64,000 nucleotides of DNA from Rhodococcus ruber NBRC 15591. GTDB lineage: Bacteria > Actinomycetota > Actinomycetes > Mycobacteriales > Mycobacteriaceae. The DNA is taken from contig NZ_BCXE01000021.1 of the NCBI RefSeq assembly GCF_001894945.1, forward strand, positions 62,001-126,000. The letters are read 5' to 3'. Below are positions 3,789 through 42,168 of this stretch, in pieces. Position 1 is the first letter of the stretch. Each line of letters begins with the position of its first letter. Made by a program: the position numbers and the translations under genes. Below the pieces are notes generated by a model that was not told the origin of the DNA, did no database searches, and saw only the letters and a program-made list of their open reading frames with translations.

Positions 3789-5231
3789 GTGCCGCCGCAC
3801 CTCGTCCTGCGCAATGCCCGCACCGCTCCCGGCGCCGACCCGGTCGACCTGCCGATCACCGGCGACCGCGTCGTCTCCGATCCCGCGGGCGGCGCCGAGG
3901 TCGTCGACGTCGGGGGGCGACTGGTACTGCCGGGACTGTGGGACGCGCACGTGCACTTCGACCAGTGGGCCCTCGCGCACGCCGCGCTCGACCTGTCGGG
4001 CGCGACGTCGGCCGCGCACGCGGTCGCGCTGGTGGCCGCCCGCCTGGTCGTCGACCCCGCTCCCGTCGTGGTCGCGCGCGGCTTTCGCGACGGGCTGTGG
4101 CCGGACGCACCCACCGCAGCGGTGCTCGATGCGATCGCCCCCGCCCGGCCGGTCGTCGCGCTCAGCGCGGACCTGCACTGCGCCTGGTTCAATACCTCCG
4201 CGCTACAACACTTCTCGCTGCATCCACATCCCACGGGATTGCTGCGCGAGAGCGAGTTCATGCCGCTGATGAACGACATCCAGCGCGTGGACGCCGAGGT
4301 GCGCGACCGGCTCGTGGACGCCGCGGCCCGAGCGGCCGCGGCCCGGGGTGTCGTCGGGGTCGTCGACTTCGAGATCGCCGACAATCTGGCCGCCTGGTCA
4401 CGCCGCATCGGCGCCGGGACGCGGTACCTGCGTGTCCGGTGCGGCATCTGGCCCCGGTGGCTCGGTGCCGCGATCGCGGCGGGAATGCGGACCGGCGACC
4501 CGGTGCCCGGCACGGCGGGTCTGGCGACGGTCGGTCCCGTGAAGGTGATCGTCGACGGGTCGCTCGGTACCCGCACCGCCTACTGCCACGAGCCGTATCC
4601 CGACGGCGAGCACGGGGTGCTGACTGTGCCTCCGGAACAACTCGAGCCGCTGATGCGCCACGCCCACGACCACGGGTTCGAGAGCGCAGTCCACGCGATC
4701 GGCGACCACGCGTGTGCGCACGTGCTCGACGCGTTCGCCGCCACCGGGGCACACGGCAGCGTGGAACACGCTCAGCTCGTGGCCGAGCGCGACGTCCCAC
4801 GCTTCGCGCGGTCCGGTATCGCGGCGAGCATCCAGCCGGCGCACGTGTACGACGACGTGGACCTGGCCGAGCGGTACTGGCCCGGCCGGACGCACCGCTC
4901 GTTTCCGTACGCGACGCTCCACGCGGCGGGCGCGCGCCTCGTCCTCGGCTCCGACGCACCGGTCGCACCCCTCGATCCGTGGCGGACCCTGGCCGCCGCG
5001 ATCGACCGCACCCTGCCCGACGGCCGCGTCTGGCACCGCGAGCAGGAACTGGATCTGCAGGTGGCGCTCGCAGCGTCCACCGGCGGCCGGACCCGCGTCA
5101 CCGCCGGTGACGTCGCCGACCTCGTGGTGCTCGACGCGGACACGCTGCCCCGCTCCGGCGCGGAGCTGGCCGCGACGGCGGTGTGGGGCACGATGCTCGG
5201 CGGCCGTTGGACGCACGGGCCGCTAGCCTGA
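3789..5231 (+). CDS. amidohydrolase family protein (YtcJ-like)
   Basis: A 480-residue metal-dependent amidohydrolase of the YtcJ/amidohydrolase-3 group. The metal-binding DAHVHFD motif lies near residue 52, later conserved pieces include VDGSLGTRTAY, HAIGDHA and the terminal metal-ligand region LGSDAPV, and the C-terminus returns to the small beta-sandwich (GDVADLVVLD). The family hydrolyses C-N bonds in cyclic or N-acyl compounds; the substrate cannot be told from sequence. The GTG lies three bases after the helicase stop, and the next gene starts four bases after this stop, so the three genes form a compact same-strand group, although the third has its own promoter-like hexamer. Confidence 0.85.
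   Translation: MPPHLVLRNARTAPGADPVDLPITGDRVVSDPAGGAEVVDVGGRLVLPGLWDAHVHFDQWALAHAALDLSGATSAAHAVALVAARLVVDPAPVVVARGFRDGLWPDAPTAAVLDAIAPARPVVALSADLHCAWFNTSALQHFSLHPHPTGLLRESEFMPLMNDIQRVDAEVRDRLVDAAARAAAARGVVGVVDFEIADNLAAWSRRIGAGTRYLRVRCGIWPRWLGAAIAAGMRTGDPVPGTAGLATVGPVKVIVDGSLGTRTAYCHEPYPDGEHGVLTVPPEQLEPLMRHAHDHGFESAVHAIGDHACAHVLDAFAATGAHGSVEHAQLVAERDVPRFARSGIAASIQPAHVYDDVDLAERYWPGRTHRSFPYATLHAAGARLVLGSDAPVAPLDPWRTLAAAIDRTLPDGRVWHREQELDLQVALAASTGGRTRVTAGDVADLVVLDADTLPRSGAELAATAVWGTMLGGRWTHGPLA
5224..5229 (+). promoter_or_regulatory. -10 hexamer inside the amidohydrolase end
   Basis: TAGCCT covers the last codons of the amidohydrolase and lies six bases before the GTG at 5236. It repeats the arrangement at 1269, giving the downstream gene a probable leaderless transcript of its own. 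Confidence 0.45.
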
Positions 5232-5235
5232 GCGG

Positions 5236-5988
5236 GTGAGCGAAGAGTCCGCCCCGGCGTTCCGGCTGGGCTACGTCCCCGGTGTCACCCCCGGGAAATG
5301 GGCGCGGGTGTGGGCGGAACGGATACCCGACGTCCCCCTGGAACTGGTACCGGTGGCGGCCGCGGCCGGCGAGAGCGCGGTGCGCGACGGCACGGTCGAC
5401 GCCGCGGTGCTGCGATTGCCGCTGCCTCGCGACGGACTGTCGGTGATCAATCTCTACACCGAGACGTCGGTGGTGGTCGTGCCCGAAGACCATGCGGTCG
5501 CGGCAGTCGACGAACTGGACGTCGCGGATCTCGCGGAGGAAACGGTGCTGCACCCGCGCGACGACGTGCTGGACTGGGCGCGCCTGCCGGGACAGGAGGC
5601 GTTCGAGCGGCCGGCTACGACGGAGGCGGCCGTGTCGTACGTCGCCTCGGAGGTGGGGGTGCTGGTCGTGCCGCAGTCGTTGGCGCGGCTGTACCACCGC
5701 AAGGATCTGACGTATCGGCCGGTGACCGACGCCCCGCAGTCCCAGGTGGGACTGGTGTGGCCGTCGGAGCGGACCACCGAGCTGGTCGAGGAGTTCGTCG
5801 GGATCGTGCGGGGCCGCACCGCCAACAGCTCGCGGGGCCGGCAGGACGAATCCCAGCCGAAGCAGAAGCGGCGCGGGGAACGCCAGGGTTCGCAACCGAG
5901 GAAGGTCGTCGGCGACAAGAAGCCGAAGACCCGCCGCGGCAATGCGGGACGCCCGAAGAGCGCCGGACGTGCGCGGCGGCGTCGATAG
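5236..5988 (+). CDS. LysR-type effector-binding domain protein without HTH
   Basis: A 250-residue protein whose first 190 residues resemble the periplasmic-binding-protein-like effector domain of LysR regulators: an N-terminal strand FRLGYVPGV, then VDAAVLRLPL, VVVPEDHAVA and VLVVPQSLARL. The usual LysR N-terminal helix-turn-helix of about 60 residues is absent. Residues 195-250 form an Arg/Lys-rich tail that could bind nucleic acid or another acidic partner. The GTG start is supported by the leaderless arrangement and by the immediate start of the fold. It may be a ligand-binding accessory protein or a regulator with an atypical DNA contact. No pathway is indicated; the gene follows an amidohydrolase on the same strand. 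Confidence 0.7.
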   Translation: MSEESAPAFRLGYVPGVTPGKWARVWAERIPDVPLELVPVAAAAGESAVRDGTVDAAVLRLPLPRDGLSVINLYTETSVVVVPEDHAVAAVDELDVADLAEETVLHPRDDVLDWARLPGQEAFERPATTEAAVSYVASEVGVLVVPQSLARLYHRKDLTYRPVTDAPQSQVGLVWPSERTTELVEEFVGIVRGRTANSSRGRQDESQPKQKRRGERQGSQPRKVVGDKKPKTRRGNAGRPKSAGRARRRR

Positions 5989-6065
5989 CGGGTCCGGCGC
6001 GGTGACCGGTCTCGGAGCGGGGAGGCTGCAGGACACCGCGCGCGGAGCCCGGCGTACCCGGCGGC

Positions 6066-6443
6066 TCACCCCGAACGCACGAGGCAGAACACGTGGCCGC
6101 CCGGATCACGGTAGGTACGAAAGGTAGGGCTGGGATTGGGACCCGCGACGCGGGTCGCACCGTGCCGCAGGGCCCACGCCTCCGCGGCCTCGAGGTCGTC
6201 CACCTCGAGGTCCAGGTGCGCCTGCAACCGCACCCTGCCGTCCGGCCACGTCGACGGGGTGAATTCGGGTGCCAGCTGGAACGCCAGGCCCCCACCGGCA
6301 GGGGCACGCAACTGGACCCAGTCGTCGTCGGTGGCGGCGTCGTCGATGTCCCAGCCGAGCAGCGCGGCATAGAACGAGGCCAGCCCGGACGGATCCGGTG
6401 TGTCGAGGACGTAGACCTGCAGTGCGATGGCGGGGCGCGACAT
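6066..6443 (-). CDS. VOC (glyoxalase/bleomycin-resistance) family protein
   Basis: A 125-residue protein of the vicinal oxygen chelate fold. It shows the paired beta-alpha-beta-beta-beta modules: VYVLDTPDPSGLASFYAALLGW near the start, then LEVDDLEAAEAWALRHGATRV and the terminal DPGGHVFCLV. Members bind a metal or small ligand and include lyases, dioxygenases and resistance proteins; the role here is unknown. I chose the ATG giving MSRPAIALQ because the longer frame adds only a short unconserved tail. It is transcribed against the gene at 5236, and a related-strand protein lies just upstream at 6537. Confidence 0.78.
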   Translation of the reverse strand: MSRPAIALQVYVLDTPDPSGLASFYAALLGWDIDDAATDDDWVQLRAPAGGGLAFQLAPEFTPSTWPDGRVRLQAHLDLEVDDLEAAEAWALRHGATRVAGPNPSPTFRTYRDPGGHVFCLVRSG

Positions 6444-6536
6444 GGGCTCATGATCCCGCGAAGTCACCGGCCGGGGCCGGGGAACGCGGCCATTCGACGG
6501 CGCGGGCTCCCGTCGACGGCACAGCCCGTGCGGGCT

Positions 6537-17144: not shown

Positions 17145-17266
17145 CGAGGCCTCCGTGTCACTCGCCCGCGGGACGGTGCCCGCGACGTGTCGCTCGTCCG
17201 CGGGACAGGACCCGCAGCGGAACTTCGGTCATCGCTCGATCGACGGCCGTTCGATCACCTGTTCGA

Positions 17267-17282
17267 AGGAACGTATGTTCGA
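17267..17282 (-). promoter_or_regulatory. LexA (SOS) box for the LysM gene
   Basis: The sequence AGGAACGTATGTTCGA matches the mycobacterial SOS box TCGAACNNNNGTTCGA except at the first two positions. It lies about 120 bases before the LysM gene start and 140 bases before lexA. The fully kept half-site GTTCGA suggests real LexA binding. Confidence 0.65.
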
Positions 17283-17329
17283 TGTGTACCACGTCGCTCC
17301 GACAAAGTCAGCACAACGGGCGGAAAACG

Positions 17330-17345
17330 TCGAACAGATGTTTGA
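17330..17345 (+). promoter_or_regulatory. LexA (SOS) box for lexA autoregulation
   Basis: TCGAACAGATGTTTGA matches the SOS box with one changed base in the right half-site. It overlaps the proposed lexA -35 hexamer at 17342, so LexA bound here would exclude RNA polymerase. Confidence 0.8.
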
Positions 17346-39283: not shown

Positions 39284-39862
39284 TCAGTCGGCGGCGAATT
39301 CGCCGGGCCCGGAATCGTGCCCGGCGAGTTCGTTGCGGACCACCTCGAAGGCCAGGCCCTGCGGGTATCCCCGGCGGGCGAGCATGCCGACCAGCCGTCG
39401 CACCACCTTGTCCCGCTCCGCAGCGATCTCGCGCCGGTCGCCCTCCGTGGGCAGCGGCGGTTGGGTGCGCAGCTTCTTGCGCACCAGTTCGGTGGCACGG
39501 GCGCGCTCGTCGTCGCCGTCGATCTGCTCGAGTGCCTCCGCGGCCTCGACCTGCCCGATTCCCTTGCGGCGCAGCTCCATGGCCAGGGCACGTTTGCCCT
39601 TCCCGGCGTACAGGTGGCGGGAGCGTACCCACTGCTGGGCGAACTCGGCGTCGTCGACGAGACCGACCTCCGTCAACCGGTCGAGGGTCCGCTCGGCGAC
39701 GTCCGCGGCGAAGCCCTTCTGTTCGAGCTTCGCGGCGAGTTCGGCGCGGCTGCGAGCCCGGTCGGTCAGCAGACGGAGGCACAGGTCCTTGGCCTGTGCC
39801 TCCGTTCCACCACCGGGCCGGTCGCCGCCGCGCCGGTCACCGCGACGGGAGTCGCCGTCCAA
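39284..39862 (-). CDS. recX: RecA regulator RecX
   Basis: A 192-residue, helical protein that inhibits RecA filament extension. The three-helix repeats are visible: LCLRLLTDRARSRAELAAKL, ERTLDRLTEVGLVDDAEFAQQWVRSR and KRALAMELRRKGI. The N-terminal 20 residues are Arg/Gly/Asp-rich and unconserved. It begins eight bases after the recA stop, so it is co-transcribed with recA and should also respond to DNA damage. The stop codon is only four bases from the end of gluD. Confidence 0.94.
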   Translation of the reverse strand: MDGDSRRGDRRGGDRPGGGTEAQAKDLCLRLLTDRARSRAELAAKLEQKGFAADVAERTLDRLTEVGLVDDAEFAQQWVRSRHLYAGKGKRALAMELRRKGIGQVEAAEALEQIDGDDERARATELVRKKLRTQPPLPTEGDRREIAAERDKVVRRLVGMLARRGYPQGLAFEVVRNELAGHDSGPGEFAAD

Positions 39863-39870
39863 TGCCCGAC

Positions 39871-42003
39871 TCAGAAGTCGGCGGGCTCGTCGGCGTTCTC
39901 GGCGGTGATATCCGCCCCGATCCCGAGCTTCTCCTTGATCTTCTTCTCGATCTCGTCCCGGATGTCGGTGTTCTCGAGCAGGAACTTGCGGGCGTTCTCC
40001 TTGCCCTGACCGAGCTGATCGCCCTCGTAGGTGTACCAGGAGCCGGACTTGCGGATGAAGCCCTGCTCGACACCCATGTCGATGAGCGAGCCCTCCTTAC
40101 TGATGCCGTGGCCGTAGAGGATGTCGAACTCGGCCTGCTTGAAGGGCGGCGACACCTTGTTCTTGACGACCTTGACGCGGGTGCGGTTGCCCACCGCATC
40201 GGAGCCGTCCTTGAGGGTCTCGATGCGCCGCACATCCAGTCGCACCGACGCGTAGAACTTCAAAGCCTTACCGCCGGTGGTCGTTTCGGGTGAATTGTGA
40301 ACCATTACACCGTCGACGAAGTAGTTGTGGTTGCCCTCGACCTCGATATCGAAACGGCTCATCGACCGGGTCGGCGGCTTCACGTGCACGTCGAGCACAC
40401 GCGAGGGGACGAGCCGCTGAGTCGGCTCCACGAATTCGGGAGCCACGATGCCGAGACCGCGGAAGCGGGGCAGCAACTTGTACTCCATCGAAGGGGCCAT
40501 GTACGGCGCGACGATCTCCTGGAACTTCGCGGAGGCCGACGTGGAGAAGACCAGCACGGCCTTCTGCGCGGCGCCGGCGAGTCGCAGCCGAACGTCGAGT
40601 CCGTGGACATCTCGCAGGTAGTCGCGCAGACGTGCGCGCGAGCCCTCGCTCATGGCCTCCACACAGATCTCGATACGACCACTTCTGCCCTCGGTACGCT
40701 GCTGCACTCCCTTGGAACGCACAGAGAACGACCCGTCGTCCATGTACCAGACCGCCAGCGCAAGCGGTGTGAGCGACTTCAGATACTCCTCCGAGAGAAA
40801 CTTCTTGCCGTCCCCGAGGTACACGGCGCGCTGCAGCTCCGCCAGCTCGGGCAGCGGCGTGAATTCGACGAACTTCGCACCCTTGTCGTTCTCCCGCACG
40901 GAGTGCCCGATGTTGCCGAGCAGATTCGTCTTCCAGTCGAGGTACGCGTGTTGCGCAGGACCGTGCCCCATGCGGAAGCGAACGCCGTTGCGGTCACGCC
41001 GGTTCGGGGAGAGATTGCCGTCCCCCATCAACGAGCCCAGGACGATCTGGAACTGCTGGTCGCTCAGGCGATGCGGTTCCATCGAGAGGACGCGGTCACC
41101 GGCGATGATCTCACCGGCAGGGGTCCACCCTCCCGGTGTACGGATGAGATGGTTCGGAGTCGCGGCGAACTGAGACCGACCGTTCCCTCCGGACTTCTCC
41201 ACAGTGAACTGCAGGAAATGGTCGGCACGGCCGTTGTCGAACCAGTTCACGATCCGGCGCGGCACGATGCTGTCGGTGTCGGGATCGTAGGACATCACCT
41301 CGACGTCCATCTTCTGGTTGACGATCTTGCCGATCTTCTCCGTCGTGCCGTCGGCCAGCTGGACCCGGGTGCCGTAGGAGAAGCATCCGAACATGACTCC
41401 GATCTTCTCGCGCAGCTGGTTGATGAAGATCGCGGTGGTGCCGGAGTTGTTGAGCGCGCCGGTCATCTTGCGCAGCGCCTGGCTCATCAGGCGGGCCTGC
41501 AGTCCGACGTGGCTGTCACCCATCTCACCCTCGATCTCGGCGCGCGGCACCAGGGCCGCCACCGAGTCGACCACGATGATGTCGAGCGCGCCGGAACGGA
41601 TCAGCATGTCCGCGATCTCGAGTGCCTGCTCACCGGTATCCGGCTGCGACACGAGCAGGGCGTCGGTGTCGACGCCGAGCTTGCGGGCGTACTCCGGATC
41701 GAGAGCGTGCTCGGCGTCGATGAAGGCCGCGATGCCGCCGGCGGCCTGGGCGTTGGCGACCGCGTGCAGCGCGACCGTCGTCTTACCGGACGATTCCGGG
41801 CCGTAGATCTCGACGACCCGTCCGCGCGGGAGGCCACCGATGCCGAGCGCGACGTCGAGTGCGATCGAGCCGGTCGGGATCACGGCGATGGGCTGGCGGG
41901 ACTCCTCCCCCAGGCGCATCACCGAGCCCTTGCCGAAGCTCTTGTCGATCTGCGCGAGCGCCAGTTCGAGCGCCTTGTCGCGATCGTGTGCCTGTGGTGC
42001 CAT
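39871..42003 (-). CDS. recA: recombinase RecA precursor with intein
   Basis: A 710-residue precursor: N-extein 1-206, intein 207-570, C-extein 571-710, giving a mature RecA of 346 residues, normal for the family. The exteins carry Walker A (GPESSGKTT), the conserved [15 protein letters not shown] and the C-terminal [27 protein letters not shown]. RecA drives strand exchange and LexA self-cleavage. Activity requires intein removal. The ATG at 42003 follows AAGGGGA; a longer frame upstream runs through the promoter and is rejected. recX follows after eight bases. A LexA box lies about 150 bases upstream. Confidence 0.97.
40294..41385 (-). other. RecA intein (M. leprae-type site) with LAGLIDADG endonuclease
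   Basis: A 364-residue intein inserted after Gly206 of RecA, in [14 protein letters not shown]. It starts with Cys1 ([13 protein letters not shown]), has the block-B TPNH motif ([15 protein letters not shown]), and ends in VMVHN with the penultimate His and terminal Asn, followed by Ser as +1 nucleophile, so all splicing residues are present. Two dodecapeptide motifs, [11 protein letters not shown] and [12 protein letters not shown], mark a homing endonuclease that looks intact. From memory, site and sequence agree closely with the M. leprae RecA intein and differ from that of M. tuberculosis, which is inserted nearer the C-terminus. Confidence 0.95.
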
Positions 42004-42145
42004 CGTGGTCCCCTTTTCGAGTCTCGTCTTGCTTGCCGATGACGTTAGAGTCCGGCACCGACAAGTTCGCCGTCCCGACCGGCGAGCGGCCGGATCTGTG
42101 GATGAATCGGACGCCTGTGGACTACTTCTCCACCACCCGCGCCCC

Positions 42146-42168
42146 AGCATAGGCGAACAATTGTTCGA
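42146..42168 (-). promoter_or_regulatory. recA promoter region with LexA box
   Basis: On the minus strand the box TCGAACAATTGTTCGC (42168-42153) matches the SOS consensus in 15 of 16 positions. TATGCT, a good -10 hexamer, follows two bases later (42151-42146), so bound LexA would block the promoter. The resulting leader is about 135 bases. Confidence 0.85.

Follow-up and report, generated by a model that had tools for sequence, protein, structure and literature searches.

The RecA intein of Mycobacterium tuberculosis, PI-MtuI, comprises 440 amino acids according to PMC8861304. The element described here interrupts recA of Rhodococcus ruber NBRC 15591 within a 64,000-nucleotide stretch of contig NZ_BCXE01000021.1 (the window, to which all coordinates refer) and resembles another described element, the RecA intein of M. 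leprae (L051; G, L and P numbers denote genomes, loci and proteins), with which it shares the insertion site, the splicing ends and 78% identity over residues 1-364. The M. leprae intein has 365 residues versus 364 in the window. Splicing of M. leprae RecA in vivo and the endonuclease of its intein have reportedly been studied; prior papers reportedly include Davis 1994, Frischkorn 2000 and Singh 2009. The M. leprae-type site is named RecA-b and the M. tuberculosis-type site RecA-a. PI-MtuI occupies the other RecA site and is followed by a +1 Cys.

As judged from the sequence, the element in the window very probably belongs to the M. leprae-type family of RecA inteins (class 1, RecA-b site) and has a LAGLIDADG homing endonuclease nested in it. 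The gene is built as follows.

39871-42003, minus strand: recA, whole open reading frame, translating to 710 residues plus one stop.
41386..42003, minus strand: recA N-extein, 206 residues ending REKIGVMFG (translation).
40294..41385, minus strand: intein, 364 residues, class 1 anatomy (translation and profiles).
41074..41385, minus strand: splicing (Hint) domain, first part, intein residues 1-104.
40471..41073, minus strand: LAGLIDADG endonuclease domain, intein residues 105-305.
41020..41022, minus strand: codon of Asp122, the acidic residue of motif 1.
40735..40737, minus strand: codon of Asp217, the acidic residue of motif 2, aligned with the MDDG of I-SceI.
40294..40470, minus strand: splicing domain, last part, intein residues 306-364 (profiles and model).
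39871..40293, minus strand: recA C-extein, 140 residues plus stop, beginning SPETTTGG (Pfam RecA_C, 8e-25).

The insert at 40294-41385 (minus strand) is exactly 364 residues long and free of stops, begins with CFSYGTRV and finishes with FVDGVMVHN. It lies in frame after Gly206 of RecA, where its removal would join MFG to SPETT. The class 1 residue set is present, comprising Cys1, the TxxH block (TPNH at 76-79), penultimate His363, terminal Asn364 and the +1 Ser in the extein, and the splicing domain has the Hint fold. The frame of 710 codons instead of about 346 and the insert between Gly206 and Ser with its splicing residues, as described in the first-pass annotation, were all seen. The whole 710-residue protein matched Pfam RecA with an E value of 1.7e-137. 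RecA of an intein-free genome (G001) has 346 residues and reads VMFG directly followed by SPETT, which indicates that the boundaries of the insert are clean. A chance origin of this anatomy is excluded. A frameshift or assembly artefact was rejected: the frame is open, and among the 120 proteins listed of 5152 found, 15 (that of the window included) are 98-100% identical to the window intein, on 117 contigs in all. These near-identical entries suggest that the intein allele is common in the species.

The profiles NCBIfam intein_Nterm (47.4 bits, cut-off 24.5), NCBIfam intein_Cterm (26.6 bits, cut-off 15.6) and Pfam LAGLIDADG_2 (132 bits, cut-off 25) were all passed. Against the assignment, Pfam Intein_splicing matched under its cut-off (25.9 vs 35.8), as did the NCBIfam profile for intein-containing RecA (662 vs 1024), and acidic positions of the endonuclease vary among relatives (Asp192 in 77/86 aligned rows). 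From the residues present we infer that recA would yield a 710-residue precursor, from which Cys1, the TPNH block, His363/Asn364 and the +1 Ser would catalyse excision, joining Gly206 to Ser to give normal RecA of 346 residues. The freed intein would cut intein-free recA at the uninterrupted MFG-SPETT sequence, and repair by recombination would copy the intein into the cut gene.

The two LAGLIDADG motifs claimed earlier are present as VLGSLMGDG (Asp122) and LAVWYMDDG (Asp217), both degenerate relative to the textbook letters. The domain shows the family profile, the fold and one acidic residue in each motif; Asp was found at position 122 in 85 of 86 rows, at 216 in all 86 and at 217 in 82. The intron endonucleases I-SceI and I-WcaI are alike in the fold of the endonuclease domain and in the MDDG motif, but are encoded by introns rather than nested in an intein and share 18-20% identity with the window domain. 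Of the 102 rows parsed (repeated entries counted), 97 have an intein of 364 residues.

The M. tuberculosis-type intein (RecA-a, KNK followed by Cys) was rejected for the window, which reads an uninterrupted KNKVSPPFK at that site. The earlier statement that the M. tuberculosis intein is unrelated and at another site held for the site and failed for the relationship, since the splicing domain of PI-MtuI is homologous to that of the window intein; the PI-MtuI endonuclease is probably of another type. Both kinds occur together in single RecA proteins (P0017, P0019, P0020, P0021, P0093; L053, L065, L211), amounting to 5 of the 120 proteins listed and 2 of 78 parsed genome loci, plus L211. The second, M. 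tuberculosis-type intein of P0017 matched PI-MtuI with an E value of 5.9e-90, at the other RecA site and with a +1 Cys. Among the titles and passages covered by the literature searches, which most subscription papers fall outside, none treats RecA inteins in Rhodococcus or a RecA with two inteins; one figure legend in PMC8529194 does assign a colour to the case of two inteins per gene.

The main scan, with one genome per species, gave 172 relatives, of which the best 80 were kept. All 80 are at the same RecA junction (78 were parsed by the junction pattern). Among these 80, identities were 82-87% in Rhodococcus, 85% in Skermania, 81-85% in Nocardia, 77-85% in many mycobacteria and 69-75% in Micromonospora, Nocardiopsis, Nonomuraea, Saccharopolyspora and Amycolatopsis. 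The earlier match to the M. leprae intein was right in site and sequence, although the nearest of the 80 are two Rhodococcus inteins (87%) and the window intein is closer to those of Rhodococcus, Skermania and Nocardia. The inteins of Rhodococcus sp. HNM0563 (L001), Rhodococcus sp. SMB37 (L002) and R. yananensis (L040) share site and genus with 87, 87 and 82% identity, whereas on hrpA and miaB the genome of the window does not fall into a single clade with the hosts of these three. A metagenome-assembled genome labelled Acidobacteria (L013, 84%) clusters with mycobacteria in both the intein and RecA trees and is probably mislabelled or contaminated. NCBI already names a protein of R. artemisiae (P0022) "intein-containing recombinase RecA", and the case is in this respect ordinary.

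Within the genus, a full-length match was obtained in 4 of 18 genomes (that of the window, G010, G011 and G016). The other 10 matches were partial, and the three examined (L082, L086, L090) sit in other genes. By eye, L082 (G000:C4:168703-171987), from the window's own genome, is a frame resembling a DnaB helicase that holds two intein-like inserts, and L090 (G001:C175), from the sister genome with the empty recA, is a terminase-like frame with one such insert. Of 401 family genomes drawn, 18 had a match at E<=1e-20, and every one of these lies at this junction of RecA. Matches at E<=1e-30 were obtained in 33 of 396 genomes drawn from the phylum, of which four also figure in the family count; of 8 further loci fetched (L207-L214), 5 were seen at the RecA junction, L208 and L214 being unparsed and the left border given for L209 a false pattern match. 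The junction pattern was present in 120/120 of the proteins listed. In a search for intein-free alleles of the window's own species, no protein more than 96% identical to G001 RecA was among 120 of 7897 RecAs listed, from which records near the window were possibly omitted. A phage origin of the window copy was rejected, the best viral contig reaching 37-39% and the best phage record 32% identity. That putatively viral contig (L129, 174 kb, IMG/VR) encodes an intein-bearing RecA with the same insertion site (4389-6482), and an adjoining ribonucleotide-reductase-like frame (118-2835) also has an intein-like stretch by eye.

Mobility of the family was assessed by comparing the proportion of synonymous differences (pS) of intein and RecA in 3655 pairs, for which the medians were 0.60 and 0.44 respectively. 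Mycolicibacter sinensis E1572 (L021) and M. kumamotonensis DSM 45093 (L024) have near-identical RecA inteins in clearly different recA genes, with an intein pS of 0.008 versus 0.192 for RecA, and L042/L050 gave 0.184 versus 0.356. Inteins far more alike than their RecA are the pattern that recent transfer leaves, and in the Mycolicibacter pair this transfer is clear. The reverse was seen in L031/L035, two strains labelled M. senuensis (intein 0.456, RecA 0.149), and in L057/L064 (0.344, 0.086), a pattern to be expected of separate gains, with the reservation that pS is lower for RecA in general.

The surroundings of recA contain the following features.

39284..39862, minus strand: recX, immediately following recA (NCBIfam RecX, 224.8 bits, cut-off 217).
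42042..42064, minus strand: motif identical to the LexA-independent damage promoter pattern of mycobacteria, some 38 bases ahead of the recA start.
42153..42168, plus strand: LexA-box-like palindrome GCGAACAATTGTTCGA upstream of recA, one mismatch.

The damage promoter pattern has 0 mismatches at 42042-42064, and 2 matches with at most one mismatch were found in the window versus 0.03 expected. The LexA-box pattern had 14 sites with at most 2 mismatches versus 3.6 expected, and the palindrome is therefore weak evidence by itself. An alternative upstream ATG at 42150 would extend the recA frame, yet both the start of RecA and the promoter-like motif (42042-42064) speak for 42003. Elsewhere in the window, three palindromes (17251, 17267, 17330) within 95 bases (17251-17345) are 1 or 2 mismatches from the LexA box, possibly marking a LexA-controlled promoter region.

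The history of the intein was examined with intein and RecA trees made by a quick method (87 rows each, being 89 minus the short L028 and L036, with the window and the putatively viral L129 included; many forks weak), with pair, conservation and substitution-ratio comparisons of 86 rows without L129, and with a genus tree of hrpA and miaB (5478 columns, 17 of 18 genomes, the fragmented G009 left out and hrpA of G003 partial). The intein and RecA trees, a comparison proposed earlier, agree broadly: both unite Rhodococcus, Nocardia and Skermania, keep most Mycobacteriaceae in one group and unite Micromonosporaceae; L127, a family member with 66% intein identity, is set apart in the intein tree. 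In the genus tree G001 comes out as the sister of the window's genome (100/100); its recA site is empty and its RecA N-extein protein is identical to that of the window. The site is also empty in the next relatives G004, G014 and G017, the carriers G010, G011 and G016 cluster elsewhere, and the four carriers as one clade were rejected (approximately unbiased test, p 5.8e-9). Since the sister species is empty and the carriers are not one clade, the intein came or went at least twice, and two changes are the minimum on this tree.

That the window's lineage gained the intein after separating from its intein-free sister is judged somewhat more probable than repeated clean loss. By our own count two gains are fewer events than four clean losses, the number needed if the same intein was instead inherited vertically from the ancestor of the genus and lost from G001, the G004/G014/G017 set, the G007 group of seven genomes and G002/G012. 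Such descent is the less favoured but still plausible history: the intein tree holds Rhodococcus, Nocardia and Skermania together like the RecA tree, and between the window and G010/G011/G016 the synonymous divergence (dS) of the intein (1.04-1.15) is near that of hrpA (0.90-0.92), with miaB at 0.74-0.79 and RecA at 0.48-0.57. A single vertical clock does not fit, however, because intein dS is above hrpA for G010-G011 (0.55 vs 0.34) and below it for G010/G011-G016 (0.76-0.84 vs 1.07-1.10). The 40 differences between the window and G001 also lean weakly towards the junction, with 4/40 within 15 bases on each side (p 0.026) and 9/40 within 60; p values for 15, 30, 45, 60, 90 and 120 bases per side were 0.026, 0.079, 0.13, 0.036, 0.035 and 0.063, uncorrected. 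Of changes placed on the window's side, 8/17 were within 120 bases of the junction (p 0.028), versus 3/8 on the side of G001. Several points tell against this gain: this co-conversion signal fits homing weakly; the four carriers give no sign of a recent transfer among themselves, since intein dS is not below that of hrpA, miaB and RecA; old descent with losses would give similar intein dS; placement of the window in the intein tree rests on one fork (Shimodaira-Hasegawa-like approximate likelihood ratio test, 89 only); and up to 45 bases from the site, the genus member nearest to the window is still G001 (84/90, other carriers 78-82). The junction sequence points to no sampled carrier as donor. 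At third codon positions the intein has a GC content of 0.841, lower than in any other of the 13 gene pieces measured in the window (0.859-0.939), but the intein value is below that of the extein in 9 of 10 filled loci compared; codon composition is not decisive on origin. Of the earlier alternatives, horizontal movement or an old shared element, movement is seen within the family; for the window's lineage gain is favoured but unproven. Overall, the earlier observation is confirmed and its interpretation partly supported.

The endonuclease was earlier called apparently intact, and it looks maintained. That it is dead and the element a splicing-only passenger is improbable: some relatives are without single acidic residues (Asp192, Asp217), but the window intein keeps all of these in an open frame, the modelled domain is complete, and the median ratio of nonsynonymous to synonymous substitution was 0.153 for residues 107-290, as low as in the splicing parts (0.159-0.167; RecA 0.105; 312 close pairs, not independent). 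Less probable still is that conditional splicing gates RecA under stress and that the intein is kept as a regulator. In favour of this reading, the insertion lies in the L2 DNA-binding loop, so unspliced RecA should be inactive. A damage-responsive form of this reading, in which an intein in the DNA-binding loop, probably damage-inducible promoters and splicing sped by single-stranded DNA would supply active RecA when needed, by analogy with archaeal RadA, is rated marginally lower still. Precedents are splicing of Pyrococcus horikoshii RadA, accelerated by single-stranded DNA (PMC5790916), and an M. smegmatis DnaB intein, described as an oxidative stress sensor (PMC6195587). Against regulation, only 4/18 genus and 18/401 family genomes carry the intein, and it is therefore dispensable.

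The intein is of a known kind at a known site; what is new is a further host with an evolutionary contrast. The M. leprae RecA intein emerges as a single branch of an old family that spans the actinobacteria and still moves. The window's species with the intein and its sister G001 without it, having identical RecA N-extein proteins, form a natural pair and therefore a ready test bed for the cost or benefit of a RecA intein.
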